A stretch of DNA of 35,155 bases from Patescibacteria group bacterium (GTDB taxonomy: Bacteria > Patescibacteriota > Minisyncoccia > Phycocordibacterales > UBA918): contig WFTF01000030.1 in the NCBI GenBank assembly GCA_015485575.1, positions 1 through 35,155 on the forward strand, read 5' to 3'. The notes below the pieces were generated by a model. That model saw only the letters and a program-made list of their open reading frames with translations, was not told where the DNA came from and ran no database searches. Shown here in pieces: positions 1-23,554 of the stretch (its first letter is position 1; each line of letters opens with the position of its first letter). The translations under genes were made by a program, and so were the position numbers.

Positions 1-1704
1 TCAGGGTACCTGTTCTCCGTGGCAGCTACATTTTTGCCCGCGATTGAGGTTGAGTTTTATCTGGAAATATCAACGCTTATTTGGGTGTTACTTTTTGGTC
101 ACTACTTGGAAGCAAAGTCCGGAGCGGCAGCTGGTAATGCGCTGGAAGAAGTGGCAAAACTGCTACCCAAAAAGGCACATAAGATAGTAGAGGGTGTGGA
201 AACTGACGTTGCGGTAGAAAACCTCCAAGAGGGCGATCAGGTGTTGGTGAAGCCGGGGGAGAAAATCCCCGCTGATGGGCGTATTGTTGCCGGAACGGCA
301 AATGTGGACGAAGCGCTTATCAGTGGAGAGTCAAAACCGATACAAAAGCAGGAAGGAGATGACGTGGTTGCGGGCTCCATTTGTCTGGATGGGTCGCTTA
401 CCGTACAACTTTCAAGAGTGGGAGAGCATTCCACCATCGGTCAGATTCAGCAACTTATTACGCAAGCACAGCAAACGAAGCCGAATTCACAACGAATTGC
501 CGATAAGGCATCCGCGGTATTGACAGTCGTTGCAGGTGTGACTGCGCTGTTGACCATTCTGGTATGGTCGGTGCTGCTGGGGCAACCGTTTATATTTGCG
601 CTCACCCTTGCCATTACGGTATTAGTTATTGCTTGTCCGCATGCGCTGGGGCTTGCAATCCCTACGGTAACTACCATTACGACATCACTTGCTGTGAAAA
701 GCGGTTTTTTCATCAAGAACTTAGCAAAGATTGAAGTGATTAAAAAAGCGGACTATGTTGTGTTTGATAAAACAGGAACATTGACCACCGGAGTGTTTGG
801 TGTTTCAGATGTGGTACCAACCGGAGGTATGAATGAAGAGGAGGTGTTGCGTATCGCCGCTTCCCTTGAGCAGCACTCATCACATATTATCGGCGTATCT
901 ATTGTGGAACATGCCCAACAGCAGGGGGTGACCTTAGGTGAGATTGCACAATTTAAGAACATAGCGGGTAAGGGTATACAGGCATCACTTGATGGGCAGA
1001 TCTACTTCGTGGGCAATAGCAGATTGATTGACGACGCGGGTATCGATTTTTCCGATACCGAGCATGTCTATGAGTCGTTATCGGAAAAAGGAAAAACCAC
1101 CATCTTTGTAGCAACGCAAGAGAGAGTGGTTGGATACATTGCACTGTCGGACACTATAAAGCCGGAATCGTACACGGCAATACAGCGTTTGCATGATATG
1201 GGTGTAAAAGTTGCCATGCTCACCGGAGACAATAAAGAGGTTGCGAAAGGGGTTGCGCAAGAGCTCGGTATTGATACCTACTTTGCGGAGGTACTTCCTG
1301 AAGATAAATACACTCATGTGAAGTCATTGCAAGATCAGGGCAATGTCGTCCTAATGGTGGGTGATGGTGTCAATGATGCGCCGGCACTGACACAGGCCGA
1401 CGCCGGTATCGCCATTGGTGCGGGAACAGACGTTGCGGTAGAGGCGGGGGATGTGGTGCTCACGCGTAACAATCCGGAAGATATTGTGCGATTGATTATA
1501 TTGTCAAAGAAGGTGTACACGAAGATGATACAAAACTTGGTATGGGCACTGGGATACAACATCGTGGCAATCCCCGCCGCAGCCGGTGTGTTTGCGTACT
1601 GGGGGTTCTTCTTGCGCCCTGAAATTGCAGCATTTGTCATGAGCTTATCAACGGTGATTGTGGTGGCAAATGCGATGCTCTTGAAGCGAATTAATTTGGA
1701 ATAA
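1..1704 (+). CDS. copB: Copper-translocating P1B-type ATPase, CopB-like (CPH motif), 5' truncated by window edge
   Basis: Frame is open from base 1. TGES-like ISGES, ACPHALGLAIP (CPH, CopB-type), DKTGTLT and GDGVNDAPAL motifs present. Confidence 0.9.
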   Translation, partial: SGYLFSVAATFLPAIEVEFYLEISTLIWVLLFGHYLEAKSGAAAGNALEEVAKLLPKKAHKIVEGVETDVAVENLQEGDQVLVKPGEKIPADGRIVAGTANVDEALISGESKPIQKQEGDDVVAGSICLDGSLTVQLSRVGEHSTIGQIQQLITQAQQTKPNSQRIADKASAVLTVVAGVTALLTILVWSVLLGQPFIFALTLAITVLVIACPHALGLAIPTVTTITTSLAVKSGFFIKNLAKIEVIKKADYVVFDKTGTLTTGVFGVSDVVPTGGMNEEEVLRIAASLEQHSSHIIGVSIVEHAQQQGVTLGEIAQFKNIAGKGIQASLDGQIYFVGNSRLIDDAGIDFSDTEHVYESLSEKGKTTIFVATQERVVGYIALSDTIKPESYTAIQRLHDMGVKVAMLTGDNKEVAKGVAQELGIDTYFAEVLPEDKYTHVKSLQDQGNVVLMVGDGVNDAPALTQADAGIAIGAGTDVAVEAGDVVLTRNNPEDIVRLIILSKKVYTKMIQNLVWALGYNIVAIPAAAGVFAYWGFFLRPEIAAFVMSLSTVIVVANAMLLKRINLE

Positions 1705-1913: not shown

Positions 1914-2198
1914 ATGAGTAAAAAACAACATATGAAAACCTATACATTCAAAATGGGGTTGGTGTGGGCAGGTATATCAATAGCTTTTTTCTTCCTCTGC
2001 ATGGCATGGGGTTTGCTATTGACTGATCCGACACTGCAAACACTGCATCGTAATTTGTTACAAATTGCATATCCCGGATTTAGTATGAGTATCGTGGGAG
2101 CAATCTTTGGTTTGCTTTGGGCAACAGCGTATGGATTTTTCTTCGGAGTACTATTTGTTTGGCTGATGAAGGTATGCTGTGTACATAAACACTCATGA
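1914..2198 (+). CDS. DUF5676-like two-TM membrane protein
   Basis: 94 aa, two TM segments, pattern resembling DUF5676 proteins often found with metal-resistance genes. Start could be 1932. Confidence 0.6.
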   Translation: MSKKQHMKTYTFKMGLVWAGISIAFFFLCMAWGLLLTDPTLQTLHRNLLQIAYPGFSMSIVGAIFGLLWATAYGFFFGVLFVWLMKVCCVHKHS

Positions 2199-2205
2199 AC
2201 ATGGT

Positions 2206-3321
2206 ATGGCAGGCAGTAAAGCACTTATTGAGCTACTTATAAAAGATACCGGCATTCGCATCAACGGCAGTCGTCCGTATGATATACAGGTGCACAATGA
2301 GAGGTTTTACGATGTGGTACTGAAGCGAGGTTCTCTGGGGTTGGGAGAAACCTACATGCGCGGATGGTGGGAGTGTGAAAAGTTGGATGAGTTTTTCACA
2401 CGTTTGTTGCAGGCAAGAGTTGAAGACAAGATTAAGACCGATATGCTGCTCAGCGCAAAGCTCTTTTTGCGAGCGATTACCACCATGGGTCGGAAATTAC
2501 ATGCATTTGAGGTTGGTGAGAGACACTATGATGTTGGCAATGAGCTATACATGAAAATGCTGGATCCTCTCTTGTGTTATACCTGCGGGTATTGGAAAGA
2601 TGCGCGCACCCTAGAGGAAGCGCAACGGGCGAAGCTCGATTTAATCTGCAGAAAAATAGGACTCAAACGTGGACAGCAGGTGCTCGATATAGGTTCCGGA
2701 TGGGGCAGTTTTCTGGGGTATGCGGCACAACACTACGGGGTACGGGCAAATGGTATAACGGTTTCAAAGGAGCAAAAAGCTTTTACTGACAGACGGTATG
2801 CGCAGCTTCCGGTGGAGGTGCAGCTGCAAGATTATCGTGATGTAGAGGGAACCTATAATCATGTTGTGTCCGTGGGCATGTTTGAACATGTAGGATATCG
2901 ATACTATCGTACGTTTATGAAGACGGTACATCGAGTGTTGCAGGATGACGGACTCTTTTTGCTGCATACTATTGGAGGGAATACATCAGTGTACGGGACG
3001 GATCCCTGGATAGACAAATACATCTTTCCAAACGGCATGCTTCCTTCTGTTGCGCAGATCGGCGCTGCTACGGAAGGATTGTTTGTGATGGAAGATTGGC
3101 ACAATTTCGGTGCTGATTATGACAAAACTTTGATGGCGTGGCATGCGCAGTTTGAAGCGAGGTGGGACTCACTGAAAGATACCTATGATGAAGTATTTCA
3201 TCGTATGTGGCGATACTATCTTTTAATGTGCGCAGGATCATTCCGTGCACGGAAAAACCAATTGTGGCAAATCGTTTTTTCAAAAAGGGGAGTATCCGGC
3301 GGTTACTGCTCGGTCCGTTAG
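2206..3321 (+). CDS. cfa: Cyclopropane-fatty-acyl-phospholipid synthase family protein
   Basis: YDVGNELY, CYTCGYW, LDIGSGWGS (SAM binding), SVGMFEHVG, FLLHTIGG motifs of the CFA synthase family. Internal ATG chosen over the GTG at 2179. Confidence 0.85.
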   Translation: MAGSKALIELLIKDTGIRINGSRPYDIQVHNERFYDVVLKRGSLGLGETYMRGWWECEKLDEFFTRLLQARVEDKIKTDMLLSAKLFLRAITTMGRKLHAFEVGERHYDVGNELYMKMLDPLLCYTCGYWKDARTLEEAQRAKLDLICRKIGLKRGQQVLDIGSGWGSFLGYAAQHYGVRANGITVSKEQKAFTDRRYAQLPVEVQLQDYRDVEGTYNHVVSVGMFEHVGYRYYRTFMKTVHRVLQDDGLFLLHTIGGNTSVYGTDPWIDKYIFPNGMLPSVAQIGAATEGLFVMEDWHNFGADYDKTLMAWHAQFEARWDSLKDTYDEVFHRMWRYYLLMCAGSFRARKNQLWQIVFSKRGVSGGYCSVR

Positions 3322-3369: not shown

Positions 3370-3777
3370 ATGATGAGTTGTATGAAAAACAGAGTCCTCA
3401 TCGTTATCTACACCTTCGTTTTTCTGGGTGTGCTGTTTGGTAGTTTGTTACACACGGTCTTTGACGGTTCCGTTGCACATGCGGCATGTCCATTTCAGGA
3501 GGGGGAGGTTACGGTTTGTTCCATGAATGCGCTGGATCATATTGCGGTGTGGCAAAGTAATTTTCTTGCAACCATTACACCGATAGTGTCCGTGCTTGTC
3601 GCTGCAGCCGTGCTTTTGCATGCGGCGCGCATTCCGCACAGGATTCCCATAGACGCGTTACGAAAAGCAATTCTTTCAGTCTGGCTTTCCCGACTGCGTG
3701 TGCCACAGACACTCCTTTTTGCACAGTACCTGCAAGTTTTGTTTGCGAGGGGTATTCTTCACCCAAAACGCTTTTAG
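3370..3777 (+). CDS. Hypothetical membrane protein with CPF..CSMN...DHI..W motif
   Basis: Two TM segments with a Cys/His/Trp-containing loop (ACPFQEGEVTVCSMNALDHIAVWQSNF). No firm family call. Confidence 0.55.
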   Translation: MMSCMKNRVLIVIYTFVFLGVLFGSLLHTVFDGSVAHAACPFQEGEVTVCSMNALDHIAVWQSNFLATITPIVSVLVAAAVLLHAARIPHRIPIDALRKAILSVWLSRLRVPQTLLFAQYLQVLFARGILHPKRF

Positions 3778-3850: not shown

Positions 3851-4708
3851 ATGAATAAAATAATAAGCAGCACCCTTTTTGCTGGAGTGTTGCTGCTGGC
3901 GGGTGGTGGCTTTTACTACTTGCAGACGCAAAAACCCCTGCCGGACAGTGTGACAGAGGTGCCCGAACATGCCGATGCGCTTGCAGTAAATGAATTGAGC
4001 CCGGCACAGGTGATACAACGTATACAATCGGGTGATCCTGTTGTACTGTTGGATGTACGAACAGCGGAAGCATATGAGGTGTTACATTTGCAAGGTGCGC
4101 TCTTGCTGCCGATATCCGATATATCACAAAACACTCTCCGTGGAATCGGGTTAGGTGAGGATAAGAAAGATGTAGAGATTATTATATATGGTCGCAGTGC
4201 TACAGGTGGTCAAGCTGCATACAAGATTTTGGAAGTACTGGGCTATACAAACCTCAAAGTGCTTTCCGGTGGCATTGTGCATTGGGCAGAAGATTCGTAC
4301 CCAATGACCGAAACCGGTGCATACACGGGACCGTTGACCAACAGTCGCAACAAAGTTGAAATACAGGCGAAAGAGGGTCCGCAGATGGTGCTGAGCGACA
4401 CCTTCTATGACTTTGGAGGAGTGCCACAATATGGAGGTAGTGTACAAACAGAGTTTACCGTCACCAATGCCGGTATTGATACTTTAGTAATCGGAGATAT
4501 TACCACCAGCTGCAGTTGCACCTCCGCTTTTATTTCAGATACTTCTCTTGATTCGGGGGAACGTGCGACTCTGACGGTTATCTTTGATCCAAATGTGCAC
4601 AAAGAGCCGGAAGATGTGTTCACCCGTACCGTGTTCATACCAACAAATGATGCGGATACACCGGAAGCGGAAGTGACCATACAGGTTGATATTTTAGAGG
4701 GGGTTTAG
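3851..4708 (+). CDS. Membrane-anchored/exported rhodanese-like domain fused to DUF1573
   Basis: N-terminal hydrophobic anchor, rhodanese fold signature (VVLLDVRTAEAYEVLHLQGA ... LSGGIVHW), C-terminal DUF1573 motif (TTSCSCTSA...GERATLTVIFDP). Confidence 0.8.
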   Translation: MNKIISSTLFAGVLLLAGGGFYYLQTQKPLPDSVTEVPEHADALAVNELSPAQVIQRIQSGDPVVLLDVRTAEAYEVLHLQGALLLPISDISQNTLRGIGLGEDKKDVEIIIYGRSATGGQAAYKILEVLGYTNLKVLSGGIVHWAEDSYPMTETGAYTGPLTNSRNKVEIQAKEGPQMVLSDTFYDFGGVPQYGGSVQTEFTVTNAGIDTLVIGDITTSCSCTSAFISDTSLDSGERATLTVIFDPNVHKEPEDVFTRTVFIPTNDADTPEAEVTIQVDILEGV

Positions 4709-4750
4709 CAATGCACGCACGTATTATTCAAAAATTAAGAAAAGAAGTGT

Positions 4751-5227
4751 ATGAATGGAAAAATAACTACGATTGTTATAGGACTTGTCTTCATCAGTGG
4801 TTTGGCTCTGCTGTTCGTTGGTTTGCTACCAAAACAGCCCGAAGTGCAGCGCATCGTAAACGCTCCACTGCAGGTTGAGCCACCAGACTACAATTTTGGC
4901 ACTATTGACATTAAGGGAGGGGATGTGCAGACTGATTTTTTAGTTATCAATGTCGGAACTGAGCCGGTGATCGTATCGCAGGGAACTACCAGTTGTGCCT
5001 GCACCTCGGCATCCTTTGACGGTGTGGATTTTGGGATGCATACAAAAATGGAACAAAGTGTTACCATAGAACCAGGTGAAAGAAAAACACTCACTGTAAC
5101 CTATGACCCCTTTTTCCATGGTCCAAACGGAACAGGGAAGGTGACACGTGAGGTTATCTTAAAAACCAATTCTGTCAGCACTCCCGAAGTGCGGGTGCGC
5201 ATAAAGGCAGACGTTATAAACAGTTAG
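4751..5227 (+). CDS. Membrane-anchored DUF1573 domain protein
   Basis: N-terminal TM; NFGTIDIKGGDVQTDFLVINVG and TTSCACTSA...PGERKTLTVTYDP. Confidence 0.8.
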   Translation: MNGKITTIVIGLVFISGLALLFVGLLPKQPEVQRIVNAPLQVEPPDYNFGTIDIKGGDVQTDFLVINVGTEPVIVSQGTTSCACTSASFDGVDFGMHTKMEQSVTIEPGERKTLTVTYDPFFHGPNGTGKVTREVILKTNSVSTPEVRVRIKADVINS

Positions 5228-5236
5228 AACAAACAT

Positions 5237-5521
5237 ATGTCAGAAGAAATACAAAATAACTCTGTAACGCAAGGGCGTGCAGATACAACAGAAACTTCCG
5301 CTCAGGCAGTGGCAGCTTCGCACCCTGCGCCGGAGAACTCACGTACACAAAACATGCTTGTGGCGATTATGGCGGTACTGGTTATTATGGCTGCGGTACA
5401 AGTGTTTCAAACACAGCAATTAATGGCGGCAGTGTCCAGCGGATCAATTAAAGCGGGTGCCACACAGCAAACACAGGGGTCCGGACTTGGTATACAAAGT
5501 CAAGTGGGAGGTTGTGGCTAA
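5237..5521 (+). CDS. Single-TM hypothetical protein with C-terminal GGCG
   Basis: 94 aa, hydrophilic N-terminus, one TM (MLVAIMAVLVIMAAVQVF), Gln/Ser/Gly-rich tail ending QSQVGGCG*. Confidence 0.6.
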   Translation: MSEEIQNNSVTQGRADTTETSAQAVAASHPAPENSRTQNMLVAIMAVLVIMAAVQVFQTQQLMAAVSSGSIKAGATQQTQGSGLGIQSQVGGCG

Positions 5522-5535
5522 TCCCTAAACAGAGC

Positions 5536-6291
5536 ATGACTATTACACTAGATTCAAAAAAATTGTTCCAGGGGCTGTTATTTGTATTGCTGGCGTTGTA
5601 TGGAGCAAATATATTTATCATTGGGAAGCTGTCAGCTGCGTTGATTGATAAACCTATTGAACTTTCGTTTGTAACCATTGCCGCTCCTGAAACAGACTGT
5701 GCGGTGTGTCCCGAACCAAAGAGGATTATAGATATCATTGATCAATCACATAACGTCACATACGACACCACCGAGTTGGATTCAAATAGTGCGCTGGGGC
5801 AGAAGTATATTGATCTGTATGGCATAGAAAATCTGCCCGCAATTATTGTATCAGGTGATATTCAAGATGAACGCATTTTAGGTTCATGGAAGTCCTTTGG
5901 TGCTCGCGTGGAAAAGGATCGTGTCATTATAGATGCGCTGGTACCGTCGTATAACTTGGTGGAAGGAAAAACGCGAGGTGTGGTGGAGGTGTTACTCTTG
6001 CGTGACTCCACTTGTGTGAGCTGCTTTGATGAAAAAGCATATCTGAATATTCTGCAACGGTTTGGGGTCGTGATAGGAAAAACAGCGGTCTACGATGTGG
6101 AATCTACTGAGGGTAAGGAGTTAGTGGAGAAGTACTCCATACAGAAAGTTCCCACCATGCTCATCTCACCTGACATAGACGCCTACCAACGAGTGATGGA
6201 CACTTGGAATCAGGTCGGTACCATAGAGTCTGATAACTGGCTTATTCTGCGAGAGGTGCAAAAGATTAGTCCCGAATACCTCACATTGTAG
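5536..6291 (+). CDS. Membrane-anchored tandem thioredoxin-fold protein with two CxxC motifs
   Basis: TM anchor, then two repeats: DCAVC...NLPAIIV and TCVSC...KVPTMLI (CxxC plus cis-Pro-like pattern). Start at internal ATG. Confidence 0.65.
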   Translation: MTITLDSKKLFQGLLFVLLALYGANIFIIGKLSAALIDKPIELSFVTIAAPETDCAVCPEPKRIIDIIDQSHNVTYDTTELDSNSALGQKYIDLYGIENLPAIIVSGDIQDERILGSWKSFGARVEKDRVIIDALVPSYNLVEGKTRGVVEVLLLRDSTCVSCFDEKAYLNILQRFGVVIGKTAVYDVESTEGKELVEKYSIQKVPTMLISPDIDAYQRVMDTWNQVGTIESDNWLILREVQKISPEYLTL

Positions 6292-6297
6292 TTGCTA

Positions 6298-7770
6298 ATG
6301 TATGAAAAAATTATGAAAGAGGTAAAAGATATTGTACAGAATACGTTTACGCTGTTACGTACCGGGAAAAACAGTATATTGTTTCTAACGAGCCTATTTC
6401 TCTTTGGCGGTTTGCTGTCGTTTTTCTATGGGCTGTTTACCATTCCCGTACCGGGTGGAGTACTCGGGTTTTATCGTATGGAAGAACCAACCGCTTTTGA
6501 GTACGGGTATCTGGTGTTCTCAGCGGTAGTGTCAGCACTTATCGTGACCATTACCGTCCATGCAACACGTATCAAAATAGACGAGAGGGTAAAAGGGAAG
6601 GGGGCGTCCGCACTGGGGCTAACAACGGGTATATTTGGCGCGGTGTGCCCTGCATGTCTTGGTATTAACTTTCTTGCGTTTGGTAACGTATTTACCACGC
6701 AACTTGCCTTTTTGATTCCCTATATTTTTTGGATCCAGCTTGGTGGTATAGTGCTTCTTTCGGTGGGACTCTACCTGGTTGCCAAGAGTGCGTACACCAA
6801 AGAGTGCTTGGTGTGTACAGTACAGACAGGTCCGCAAAATGCAACGCCTACAGAAGGGGAGCGTACGACCACAAATATGTCCGCCATGTCCGCATCGGTA
6901 AGCCCATCTTCCGGGTTTCAAAAGTTGCTTCCCGCGGTGCTGCTCTTTGTGCTGTTTGTCTTTGTCTACCAGGTAGGCAATATGTACGCACAAAATACCG
7001 GAAATGCGAGAGGGGAGACTTCAGGAAATATCTTAACCACCGAAGATGGTCGGAAAATAGATATAGAAGAGGTGATTCAGAAAGTGACCCCCGATGAAGG
7101 ATTTCAGACGCAGGTGCGCTGGGGGGATGTGGTGCCGAAAATGATAGAAACGGGTGTACTTGATCCGCAAAAATTGGAAACGATATTGAAAAACCGCTAT
7201 GGGCAGGAGATGAAGCCTGAGTGGCGTGCGGTGCTTGCGGGAGAAGATATACCGCTGTCCATTGATAACGATAACGCGGTGTTTATGATGTACATGCTTT
7301 GGGCAATGGCAAAGCATAACCAAAATCAAATACTTGCAGATAGTCCCATTGCAAAGTATTTTGAAAACTACGATATTGGTGTGGGGCGCGCGGGATATAA
7401 TGACACTCCACTGCTGGCCTTAAATCCAGAACAGCAGGCGCTTGCAAAACGTGTCGCGGAAAACGCCTATCGCCCGTGTTGTGGAAACTCAACAGCGGTG
7501 CCTGATTGCTCACACGGATATTCCGCACTCGGGTTGGTACAGCTTATGGCATCACAAGGATTCTCAGAAGAGGAAATATTTGACACTTTTGTGAAGTTTA
7601 ACTCCTACTGGTTCCCTGAGACATATATCAAAAACGCACTCTACTTTGAGATTACGGAAGGTCTTTCGTGGGAGGACGTAGACAAAAAACTTGTTGCAGG
7701 GAAAGAGTATTCCACACTCCGAGGTTCTTATAAGGCGAAGAATTTCTTAAAACAGAACTTCGGTATTTAG
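6298..7770 (+). CDS. Polytopic membrane protein with CPAC motif and C-terminal Cys/His-rich domain (PCYCGC-like)
   Basis: Several TM segments, GAVCPACLGIN, ECLVC, and C-terminal RPCCGNSTAVPDCSHGYSALGLVQLMASQG...FWFPETY-like region. Confidence 0.6.
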   Translation: MYEKIMKEVKDIVQNTFTLLRTGKNSILFLTSLFLFGGLLSFFYGLFTIPVPGGVLGFYRMEEPTAFEYGYLVFSAVVSALIVTITVHATRIKIDERVKGKGASALGLTTGIFGAVCPACLGINFLAFGNVFTTQLAFLIPYIFWIQLGGIVLLSVGLYLVAKSAYTKECLVCTVQTGPQNATPTEGERTTTNMSAMSASVSPSSGFQKLLPAVLLFVLFVFVYQVGNMYAQNTGNARGETSGNILTTEDGRKIDIEEVIQKVTPDEGFQTQVRWGDVVPKMIETGVLDPQKLETILKNRYGQEMKPEWRAVLAGEDIPLSIDNDNAVFMMYMLWAMAKHNQNQILADSPIAKYFENYDIGVGRAGYNDTPLLALNPEQQALAKRVAENAYRPCCGNSTAVPDCSHGYSALGLVQLMASQGFSEEEIFDTFVKFNSYWFPETYIKNALYFEITEGLSWEDVDKKLVAGKEYSTLRGSYKAKNFLKQNFGI

Positions 7771-7814: not shown

Positions 7815-8264
7815 ATGAAAAAACTATTTGCACTACTGTTCATGATGTTTGTAATGCCGATAGCCATAGTGTCGGCACATGGATCGGCTCCTGATACGCC
7901 TGATGCATCTGAAGCGGGTATGATGGGGGAGGGTATGATGAGTCAAGAGATGCAAGACTTGATGAAGACCTTTTTGATGAATGGGTCCCTCTCTTCAGAA
8001 GAAGCTGATCGCATGGTGGCACACATGCAAGAGATGATGAAAATGCACCAAGGCGGTGGTATGGGTATGATGGGGATGCAACAAGGTGATCAAAGAGGAT
8101 ATATGGCAGGTGGTATGATGAATAATGATCTTGCAGGCGGCATGATACCGTACTGGGTCTTTCACATAATGCTCTGGGTCACGTTGGTGGTTTGGTTGTT
8201 GGTCGGGTTGGTGTATCTTTTGCAGAGCACAATAGCAATCAAGAGAAAGCGTGTAGCAGAGTAG
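7815..8264 (+). CDS. Exported Met-rich protein, possible copper binding, C-terminal TM
   Basis: Signal-like N-terminus, AHGS, repeated MM/MxxM (MMGEGMMSQEMQDLM, MGMMGMQ), one C-terminal TM. Confidence 0.6.
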   Translation: MKKLFALLFMMFVMPIAIVSAHGSAPDTPDASEAGMMGEGMMSQEMQDLMKTFLMNGSLSSEEADRMVAHMQEMMKMHQGGGMGMMGMQQGDQRGYMAGGMMNNDLAGGMIPYWVFHIMLWVTLVVWLLVGLVYLLQSTIAIKRKRVAE

Positions 8265-21633: not shown

Positions 21634-21894
21634 TTAATCGCTTGCTAAAATTTTTATAGCTTCTTCAATTTGTGTTTCCTTTGCTTTTTTGGGGAGTGCT
21701 TGACAACGGTGTATGTGTTCAAGCACATATTGCTCACTGACCCCCTTCAGTGCGCTGCGCGCGGCCTTTACTTGACTGATGAACGCTTTACAGTCCGTAT
21801 TGGTGCTATCCTGCAGCATGCGCCTGAGTGCTTGTATTTGCCCCTCTGCGCGATTCAGACGGTTGATTAGTTTTTTCTGCGTTTCTCGTCTCAT
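21634..21894 (-). CDS. csoR: CsoR/DUF156-family metal-sensitive repressor
   Basis: LINRLNRAEGQIQALRRML...DCKAFISQVKAARSAL...LEHIHRC; Cys...HxxxC ligand pattern of copper-sensing CsoR. Start ATG read at 21894. Confidence 0.85.
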   Translation of the reverse strand: MRRETQKKLINRLNRAEGQIQALRRMLQDSTNTDCKAFISQVKAARSALKGVSEQYVLEHIHRCQALPKKAKETQIEEAIKILASD

Positions 21895-21925
21895 TTTTAT
21901 ACGATAGCATATGGGCTTTACTTTG

Positions 21926-21943
21926 TATACCCCATGGGGTATA
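21926..21943. promoter_or_regulatory. Candidate CsoR operator
   Basis: Perfect 18-bp palindrome TATACCCCATGGGGTATA in the csoR/efflux divergent intergenic region. Confidence 0.8.
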
Positions 21944-21952
21944 TTAGTGCGC

Positions 21953-23554
21953 ATGCATATACGAACCATATCATACAAAAAAGTGTTATTTTTCGCTGGT
22001 GGCGTCGGAACGATTTTATTGTTGTTATATTTATTCTTGTTCCAGGCTGCCGCTGTACCAGCACAAAGTGCGATGACTGAGCCGGAACTCTATACCGTCC
22101 GGGCGAGTACGACACTGCCTCTTCCTGTGTCCGGTACAGTGTTGGCCACATCTGAAGTGGTGTTACGTGCGCAAACGGCGGGAACAATTGGTGCGATTTA
22201 TGTAACCGAGGGGCAAATGGTATCTGAAGGCACCTTACTGATTGCGCAAGATGCACCTGTTTTGGCGCAGTCTTTGGAAGTGCAAAAGGCACAAGCGAGA
22301 CTGCAGGAAGCTGCACAAGAAGCGCAGGTTGCGGCACAACAATCGGCTCGGGAGAAGGCAGAGGTGCTCTATGGCGGTGCACTGACGCAAGAGCGCTTGG
22401 AGGGTGATGCTGCGGTAAAGCGTATTGATGAACAAATACAACAGCTTTTGTCAGCTCTGGATGCCGCAGTTTCGAATACTGCTGCCGCTTTGGATTTTTT
22501 GGATGTAAATCGCAGTTACTTATCTGCTGAATCATACGCTACTTACCTGGAGACTGTGACAGCTCTCTACGGTGCTCAAGTGCCACAGTTTGGTACGTCA
22601 GTGAGTTATCGCGATCTTGGTTCGGGTACTGTGTTGCGGCAAATTGCCGAAGCTCAACAGGCTGCTGCTCCAAATGCAGACACTGTATTGCGCCTTGCCA
22701 GGGAGCTTGATGTCCAGATGCAAAAATTACAATCGGTGTTTATTGACAGCGAAGATTCATTTTTTGATCAACGGGTGTTGGATGTACAGAGTGGGACGTA
22801 TGCACAGTATTTATTACAGCGTACGGCCATAACGACATCGCAAGCACAGTTACGCAGCGGCGTGTCAGCTTTGCAGACACTGCTTGATGCAGCAATGGAG
22901 ACTCAGGAACGTTCCGACAGACAACATCGCCTGGCACAAATAGACAGGTTGGGAGCGGAGACGCAAGAAGCATATGCACGAGAAGTCGCCACGTATACAA
23001 ATAACGTCAATCAGGCGCAGTTGGGTGTGGTGCGTGCGCAGTACGGTCTTTCACGCAACTTTTCTCCTTTTGATGGTGTGGTGCGTGACGTATATGTGGA
23101 GCGTGGTGAGTATGTGCAGCCAGGCAGCGCACTTTTGAGTTTGTATGATGTTTCCGGATACGAATTGTCTGTACGGGTACCTGCTGATGTGTCGGACCGC
23201 CTTGCCCAGGGACAAGTATTTTTGGTAAACGATATGATTGCGGGCTATGTAGACCGATTTTCTCCCATTTTGAAAAACGGTGGTGTCACCGTATACATAC
23301 AACTGCTTCCCGATATTGCAAGAGTTGGAGAGGTGCTATCAGGTACGCTGCTGCTTGATGTCTCTTCGCAGGAGTTCATATATGCGATACCTAGAGCATA
23401 TATTGATTTCACCAACACCGGCCCGGAATTGCTCGGCTTGTCAGGAAGGCGTTATCCAGTACGTATCATGCAAGATATGTCCGATCTGCTGTATGTACAG
23501 AGTGTAGGTGAAATAGGTGAAGCATTGCAACCAATGCCCCGCATTAGACTGTAA
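21953..23554 (+). CDS. HlyD-family/RND periplasmic-adaptor-like protein
   Basis: N-terminal TM, VVLRAQTAGTIGAIYVTEGQMVSEGTLLI biotinyl-lipoyl-like half, coiled coil, FDGVVRDVYVERGEYVQPGSALLSL second half. ATG at 21953 places the operator upstream. Confidence 0.85.
   Translation: MHIRTISYKKVLFFAGGVGTILLLLYLFLFQAAAVPAQSAMTEPELYTVRASTTLPLPVSGTVLATSEVVLRAQTAGTIGAIYVTEGQMVSEGTLLIAQDAPVLAQSLEVQKAQARLQEAAQEAQVAAQQSAREKAEVLYGGALTQERLEGDAAVKRIDEQIQQLLSALDAAVSNTAAALDFLDVNRSYLSAESYATYLETVTALYGAQVPQFGTSVSYRDLGSGTVLRQIAEAQQAAAPNADTVLRLARELDVQMQKLQSVFIDSEDSFFDQRVLDVQSGTYAQYLLQRTAITTSQAQLRSGVSALQTLLDAAMETQERSDRQHRLAQIDRLGAETQEAYAREVATYTNNVNQAQLGVVRAQYGLSRNFSPFDGVVRDVYVERGEYVQPGSALLSLYDVSGYELSVRVPADVSDRLAQGQVFLVNDMIAGYVDRFSPILKNGGVTVYIQLLPDIARVGEVLSGTLLLDVSSQEFIYAIPRAYIDFTNTGPELLGLSGRRYPVRIMQDMSDLLYVQSVGEIGEALQPMPRIRL

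Follow-up and report, generated by a model that had tools for sequence, protein, structure and literature searches.

A conserved cysteine-rich envelope cassette of Patescibacteria with a probable role in soft-metal export

Contig WFTF01000030.1 of a Patescibacteria group bacterium (assembly GCA_015485575.1) was analysed over its full 35,155 nucleotides, hereafter called the window. It carries five consecutive genes (A to E, positions 3851–7770) for proteins with different cysteine motifs. The genome is small (0.8 Mb) and of Patescibacteria type; among its relatives are loci that bear the names Candidatus Andersenbacteria and Zambryskibacteria. With moderate confidence we propose that this cassette is an extracytoplasmic thiol–disulfide module serving the export of a soft metal, most likely copper. 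A previous, sequence-only reading of this DNA had suggested an undescribed extracytoplasmic thiol/redox cassette that might relay electrons, persulfide or a soft metal. The suggestion was partly borne out, namely for a conserved thiol cassette with a soft-metal link: genes C, D and E recur together in four genomes, DUF1573 proteins co-occur with the C-terminal domain of E (E_C), fusions occur, and most E_C loci lie in copper-type islands. The envelope thiol module with its link to the export of soft metals is real and conserved, and apparently undescribed.

The five genes lie on one strand with intergenic gaps of 6–42 nucleotides and are followed by gene F for a Met-rich exported protein (Table 1). 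A hydrophobic N-terminal segment is predicted in each of the five proteins, consistent with membrane anchoring, and E contains about five such segments. This layout, the identity of A as a rhodanese–DUF1573 fusion and of B as a DUF1573 protein (both borne out by Pfam), and the motifs GGCG in C, CAVC and CVSC in D, and CPAC and CC...DC.HG in E are all as first described; to these we add ECLVC in E.

When E was searched against 146 related genomes, it proved to be a fusion of two domains, E_N and E_C. The N-terminal CPxC domain E_N also exists as a lone gene. C115, C118, G127 and C171 are invariant in an alignment of 16 E_N sequences, and the AlphaFold2 model (predicted local distance difference test, pLDDT, 70) gave no useful Foldseek match. 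In about 22 genomes E_C is encoded separately, as a protein of about 300 residues that has a membrane anchor of its own. The domain was found in 24 of 146 genomes of the order and 36 of 380 genomes of the phylum, and was not found in the viral contigs searched. Its RPCC.N, DC.HG, LG and WF residues are invariant. Outside the phylum, tblastn located E_C on one plasmid each from Burkholderia contaminans and Paraburkholderia fungorum, with 36–38% identity. The B. contaminans homologue (WP_027810704.1, "hypothetical protein") is encoded directly 3' of a heavy-metal ATPase in an island that also holds CueR, CcdA, thioredoxin, DUF411 and SCO. The P. fungorum homologue (WP_028197075.1) has genes for P1B ATPases, HMA proteins, a MerR-type regulator, thioredoxin and CcdA in its vicinity, and a mer operon follows at a greater distance. 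Both plasmid proteins keep a Cys near the C-terminus. E_C is a widespread ectodomain.

No Pfam or NCBIfam family matched E_C, and a sequence search against the PDB returned chance-level matches only. The AlphaFold2 model predicts a helical domain (pLDDT 93.6). Foldseek found no global match to this model; the only local matches of notable probability were the CcmH domains 2hl7 (probability 0.75, root-mean-square deviation 1.8 Å over 61 columns) and 2kw0 (probability 0.63), both with E-values > 1. Profile–profile alignment with hhalign gave a colinear match to CcmH over 75 columns across the motif at a probability of 3%. This alignment places the CC region of E_C at the CcmH motif, with the first motif Cys replaced by Arg and the second kept. 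CcmH is a three-helix-bundle thiol reductant in which the second Cys attacks (PMC3884852). The LRCxxC redox motif of CcmH/NrfF is not present in E_C, and PF03918 (CcmH/NrfF) found no match at E-values up to 10 in 26 E_C members. The models thus point to a weak resemblance to CcmH rather than to membership. A Cytobacillus plasmid protein annotated as CcmH (L177) contains PPGC...DYC in place of LRCxxC and may stand midway between CcmH and E_C. PCYCGC (or CYCXC, PF13798) proteins are likewise exported and rich in Cys, with Cys residues close together and a His after them; their likeness to E_C is a lead only. Membership of E_C in this family was considered and rejected: PF13798 gave no match over its cut-off in 12 genomes that carry E_C or its divergent counterpart described below, and none at these loci.

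The CcmH-like local fold match, together with CcdA neighbours and cupredoxins, could indicate assembly factors for cytochrome c or a haem–copper oxidase, like CcmH, CcdA and SCO in other bacteria. A role in cytochrome c maturation or oxidase assembly is very unlikely, because cytochrome c synthetase (PF01578) occurs in 0 of 23 E_C genomes and COX1 in one of 23.

The gene neighbourhoods point to metal export. Among 61 E_C loci, the genes near E_C encode DUF1573 proteins (43 loci, counted within seven genes of E_C), P1B ATPases (38), CsoR-family regulators (22), CcdA-like proteins (20) and cupredoxins (16); DUF411 is also found. At least one metal-handling gene is present near E_C in 47 loci. 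Heavy-metal ATPases above the family cut-off number 1–3 per genome in 22 of 23 E_C genomes of the order, and in 17 of 23 such an ATPase lies no more than about 6 kb from E_C. The membrane motifs of the neighbouring pumps are CPC (21) and CPH (20). Copper pumps use both motifs, and CPC is shared with Zn/Cd pumps.

Fusions tie these parts together. One genome encodes a P1B ATPase, an extra transmembrane segment, E_C and a tail in a single 1037-residue frame. Because of the added segment, E_C would sit on the outer face, where the pump releases metal. A CPxC membrane domain is fused to E_C at ten loci (the window, three relatives with C-D-E and six further genomes), and one further CPxC fusion involves a divergent domain. 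E_C on the outer side of a P1B ATPase, the abundance of soft-metal ligands (CC, CxC, GGC and Met-rich sequences) and the DUF411, cupredoxin and HMA neighbours would also suit a metal relay. Here, CC..DC.H and the Gly-Cys arms would act as Cu(I) ligands that exchange the metal, in either direction, with the P1B pump, the CxC motifs of DUF1573, Met-rich F and cupredoxins, while the thioredoxin parts only keep these sites reduced. We consider this alternative rather unlikely, since the two CxxC thioredoxin folds in D and the recurring CcdA-type conduits suit electron transfer, and the E_C model matched no known copper-chaperone fold in Foldseek.

The thiol–disulfide reading also draws on the association with DUF1573. 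Proteins A and B are the two DUF1573 proteins of the source genome (PF07610; 59 and 50 bits, cut-off 26.1; E-values 4.8e-16 and 2.8e-13), and A contains in addition a rhodanese domain (PF00581; 53.9 bits, cut-off 22.2; E-value 2.7e-14). Across the 146 genomes of the order, DUF1573 is present in 20 of 24 genomes with E_C and in 9 of 122 without (Fisher 4e-14, a value that overstates independence, the genomes being related). The rhodanese domain raises the question of whether persulfide loaded by this domain might be passed along the Cys sites as sulfane sulfur. Rhodanese is fused to DUF1573 and, in two genomes, an active-site rhodanese is fused to E_C; relatives of A keep the active-site Cys, and DsrE genes lie near the Paraburkholderia homologue. 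However, the rhodanese domain of A has Gly in place of the catalytic Cys (YGRSATGG, where three orthologues read YCRSGARS), and the sole cysteines of A are the two in its DUF1573 domain. Passage of persulfide through A, one of the options raised by the sequence-only reading, is therefore unlikely in the source genome. Rhodanese profiles matched at just 7 of the 61 E_C loci, and we regard a sulfur relay as very improbable.

The thiol–disulfide module would also include a mobile cysteine. A Gly-rich, single-Cys terminus was found in 61 of 8019 open reading frames of the loci examined, and all 61 encode E_C, C-like mini-proteins, divergent CC proteins or an adjoining thioredoxin-fold protein. Within E_C itself, 58 of 62 proteins carry a Cys among their final 12 residues, as part of such a tail. 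The four without it are those of the window, genome G013 of the same genus, Andersenbacteria and Zambryskibacteria, which are exactly those having gene C. The VGGCG tail of C is invariant in all four. At two loci (L164:8976-9806, minus strand; L165:4200-5030, plus strand) a GILT/DsbA-like thioredoxin-fold protein with the Gly-Cys tail AGGCGG adjoins a divergent CC protein.

Genes C, D and E occur together in the window, in G013 and at loci L032 and L033. The conservation of this set exceeds chance: all three genes are kept in other lineages (37–72% identity) with their order unchanged and with the invariant tail of C. The nearest C-D-E relatives beyond the genus, L032 and L033, belong to SZUA metagenome bins that differ in lineage, and their E proteins are 60–62% identical to that of the window; this pattern suggests lateral transfer. 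Pfam returned weak glutaredoxin/thioredoxin matches in D, and no match to C or E passed. D is membrane-anchored with two CxxC motifs and matched the protein disulfide oxidoreductase (PDO) model TIGR02187 weakly, in two stretches (27.9 bits against a cut-off of 185, E-value 1.3e-6). PDO structures were matched at E-values of about 0.005–0.03.

The expectation that the genes stay together as a single system was borne out for C-D-E in the four genomes and for A-B with E_C. The fixed order of five genes did not survive comparison: the usual partner of A-B is a free E_C gene, and G013 carries A-B-E_C followed by C-D-E. Two modules, C-D-E and A-B, meet in the window. It could be argued that these are independent thiol modules, merely side by side in a metal island, as L032 and L033 carry C-D-E without A-B and nine genomes have DUF1573 without E_C. 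We find this improbable, because A-B with E_C is the common arrangement and E_C forms the C-terminal half of E, which makes this domain a central component common to both.

A second version of the cassette was found via D. In ten genomes, tandem thioredoxin proteins and mini-proteins ending in MVGGC adjoin a protein with a CxxCC...CxC.H pattern, and CcdA, CsoR, DUF411 or P1B genes are nearby in most. The profile of this divergent CC family, which retains CxxCC, matches E_C at an hhalign probability of 91% (E-value 1e-6). As the ten genomes that built the profile were chosen at D loci, the overlap with D is partly circular. The family was found in 13 of 362 phylum genomes and was not found on the plasmids searched.

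The conserved neighbourhood is wider than positions 3851–7770 and also takes in the P1B ATPase gene (up to 1704) and the small gene at 3370–3777. A second contig of the same genome (C57, locus L179) overlaps positions 1–399 of the window at 98.5% identity. Because these ends overlap, the two contigs probably join, which would place an assembly break inside the P1B ATPase gene. Upstream of the overlap, C57 encodes the His-rich N-terminus of the CPH ATPase, CcdA, a CsoR-family regulator, and DUF302-like and DUF411-like proteins. This CcdA is 67% identical to the CcdA adjoining E in L032 and L033. Between the DUF411-like and DUF302-like genes lies a gene (L179:3641-4105, minus strand) for a 154-residue exported protein with CC, C..C, CNC and C..C motifs, a further Cys-rich member of the same island.

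The sequence-only reading had envisaged a relay across the membrane; like its direction and substrate, this relay is stated here conditionally. From the parts described above we infer the direction of the electrons, the order of transfer, the metal and the final substrate as follows. Reducing equivalents from the cytoplasm would cross the membrane via the CcdA-type protein encoded on the overlapping upstream contig, via E_N, or via both; E_N could act as a conduit through its CPAC motif in the membrane and its conserved Cys at the cytoplasmic end. Electrons would then pass to the tandem thioredoxin-fold protein D. A flexible Gly-Gly-Cys arm, provided here by protein C and in most relatives by the C-terminal tail of E_C, may carry them to E_C, the CcmH-like receiver with CC and DC.H. 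Finally, E_C and the DUF1573 proteins would reduce or protect the cysteines that handle metal where the P1B pump faces outward. More tentatively, and at somewhat less than even chances, the cassette may represent a Patescibacteria-wide, laterally spread envelope machine. In it, a new CcmH-related domain would trade electrons or Cu(I) with the tandem thioredoxin carrier and the P1B pump by means of a detachable, swinging Gly-Gly-Cys arm, which is either a tail (in cis) or a mini-protein (in trans). It would be the first copper-linked thiol relay built in this way.

Besides the relatedness behind the Fisher value, several points count against the proposed metal-linked thiol module. The order A-B-C-D-E is seen in the window alone. 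At 14 of 61 E_C loci, some of them from short contigs, there is no nearby metal gene. The metal need not be copper, because the CsoR-family regulators at these loci are split between C-H-C (about ten) and C-H-H (about thirteen) types. Many loci encode a 259-residue protein that Pfam does not match and whose paired Cys are the sole reason for naming it CcdA-like. The CcmH link is weak by Foldseek (E > 1), by profile–profile comparison (3%) and by the lack of a Pfam match. Finally, the four tail-less E_C proteins form a single clade with full support, so that loss of the tail and presence of gene C amount to one evolutionary swap, not many.

Table 1. Features of the window that belong to or surround the cassette
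Feature	Position	Strand	Basis or remark
P1B-type metal ATPase	1..1704	+	5' end outside contig; TIGR01525, 576 bits; IACPHALGL, CPH motif in membrane segment
Cyclopropane fatty acid synthase (Cfa)	2179-3321		
Small membrane protein, two Cys after first membrane segment	3370..3777	+	cluster profiles c5/c20
A: anchored rhodanese–DUF1573 fusion, DUF1573 motif CSC	3851..4708	+	Pfam, alignment
B: anchored DUF1573 protein, CAC motif	4751..5227	+	Pfam
C: single-transmembrane mini-protein, flexible tail ending VGGCG	5237..5521	+	alignment, tail scan
D: anchored tandem thioredoxin-fold protein, CAVC and CVSC	5536..6291	+	alignment, TIGR02187, PDO structures
E (whole gene)	6298-7770	+	CPAC, ECLVC, CC...DC.HG
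E_N: polytopic domain, CPAC inside membrane, Cys at cytoplasmic end	6298..6990	+	alignment, hydropathy, positive-inside pattern
E_C: predicted helical extracytoplasmic domain, RPCC.N...PDC.HG...LG, WF motif, no Gly-Cys tail here	7000..7770	+	alignment, AlphaFold2, Foldseek
F: Met-rich exported protein	7815..8264	+	homologues in 6/61 E_C loci
CsoR-family regulator, away from cassette	21634-21978	-	CsoR profile match

Cluster profiles place homologues of the small membrane protein gene in about 20 of the 61 E_C loci. Cfa genes lie near E_C in five of 61 loci, twice in L033.

We found no account of the cassette in the literature on DUF1573, PCYCGC or CcmH and copper, in a search that left out subscription journals. 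Cells with streamlined 0.8-Mb genomes still devote up to ten genes to the module, and E_C, found on Burkholderia plasmids in copper islands, is annotated there only as "hypothetical protein". The proposed role offers a testable function for DUF1573 and for an ectodomain family that has no Pfam or NCBIfam model. The natural swap of the Gly-Cys arm between cis and trans opens the role of this arm to direct testing.

By Pfam score, A and B are members of the DUF1573/OS_HP2 family (PF07610, NF041425). A predicted selenoprotein form of this family with a UGC motif suggests a redox role for DUF1573 (PMC13188914). In the present case A differs by its extra rhodanese domain, which has lost the catalytic Cys, and the context is E_C and a metal pump. 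PMC8900818 and PMC5524982 describe the Scs proteins (suppressor of copper sensitivity, ScsABCD) as envelope thiol-disulfide proteins for copper tolerance and ScsC as a disulfide isomerase that binds Cu(I), and the proposed role of the cassette resembles theirs. No Scs proteins were identified at the cassette, the Scs family profiles not having been searched, and its parts differ: tandem thioredoxin folds, E_C, Gly-Cys arms and DUF1573. With the thioreduction pathway CcdA/DsbD–CcmG–CcmH of cytochrome c maturation System I, the cassette would share a membrane conduit, a carrier of thioredoxin fold and, as terminal reductant, a helical domain of another fold. In contrast to System I, the cassette genomes have no cytochrome c synthetase, and E_C has RPCC and DC.H instead of LRCxxC, a Gly-Cys tail and a metal-island setting. 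On the best reading, the cassette would work in the manner of CcdA–CcmG–CcmH or Scs and be built of different parts.

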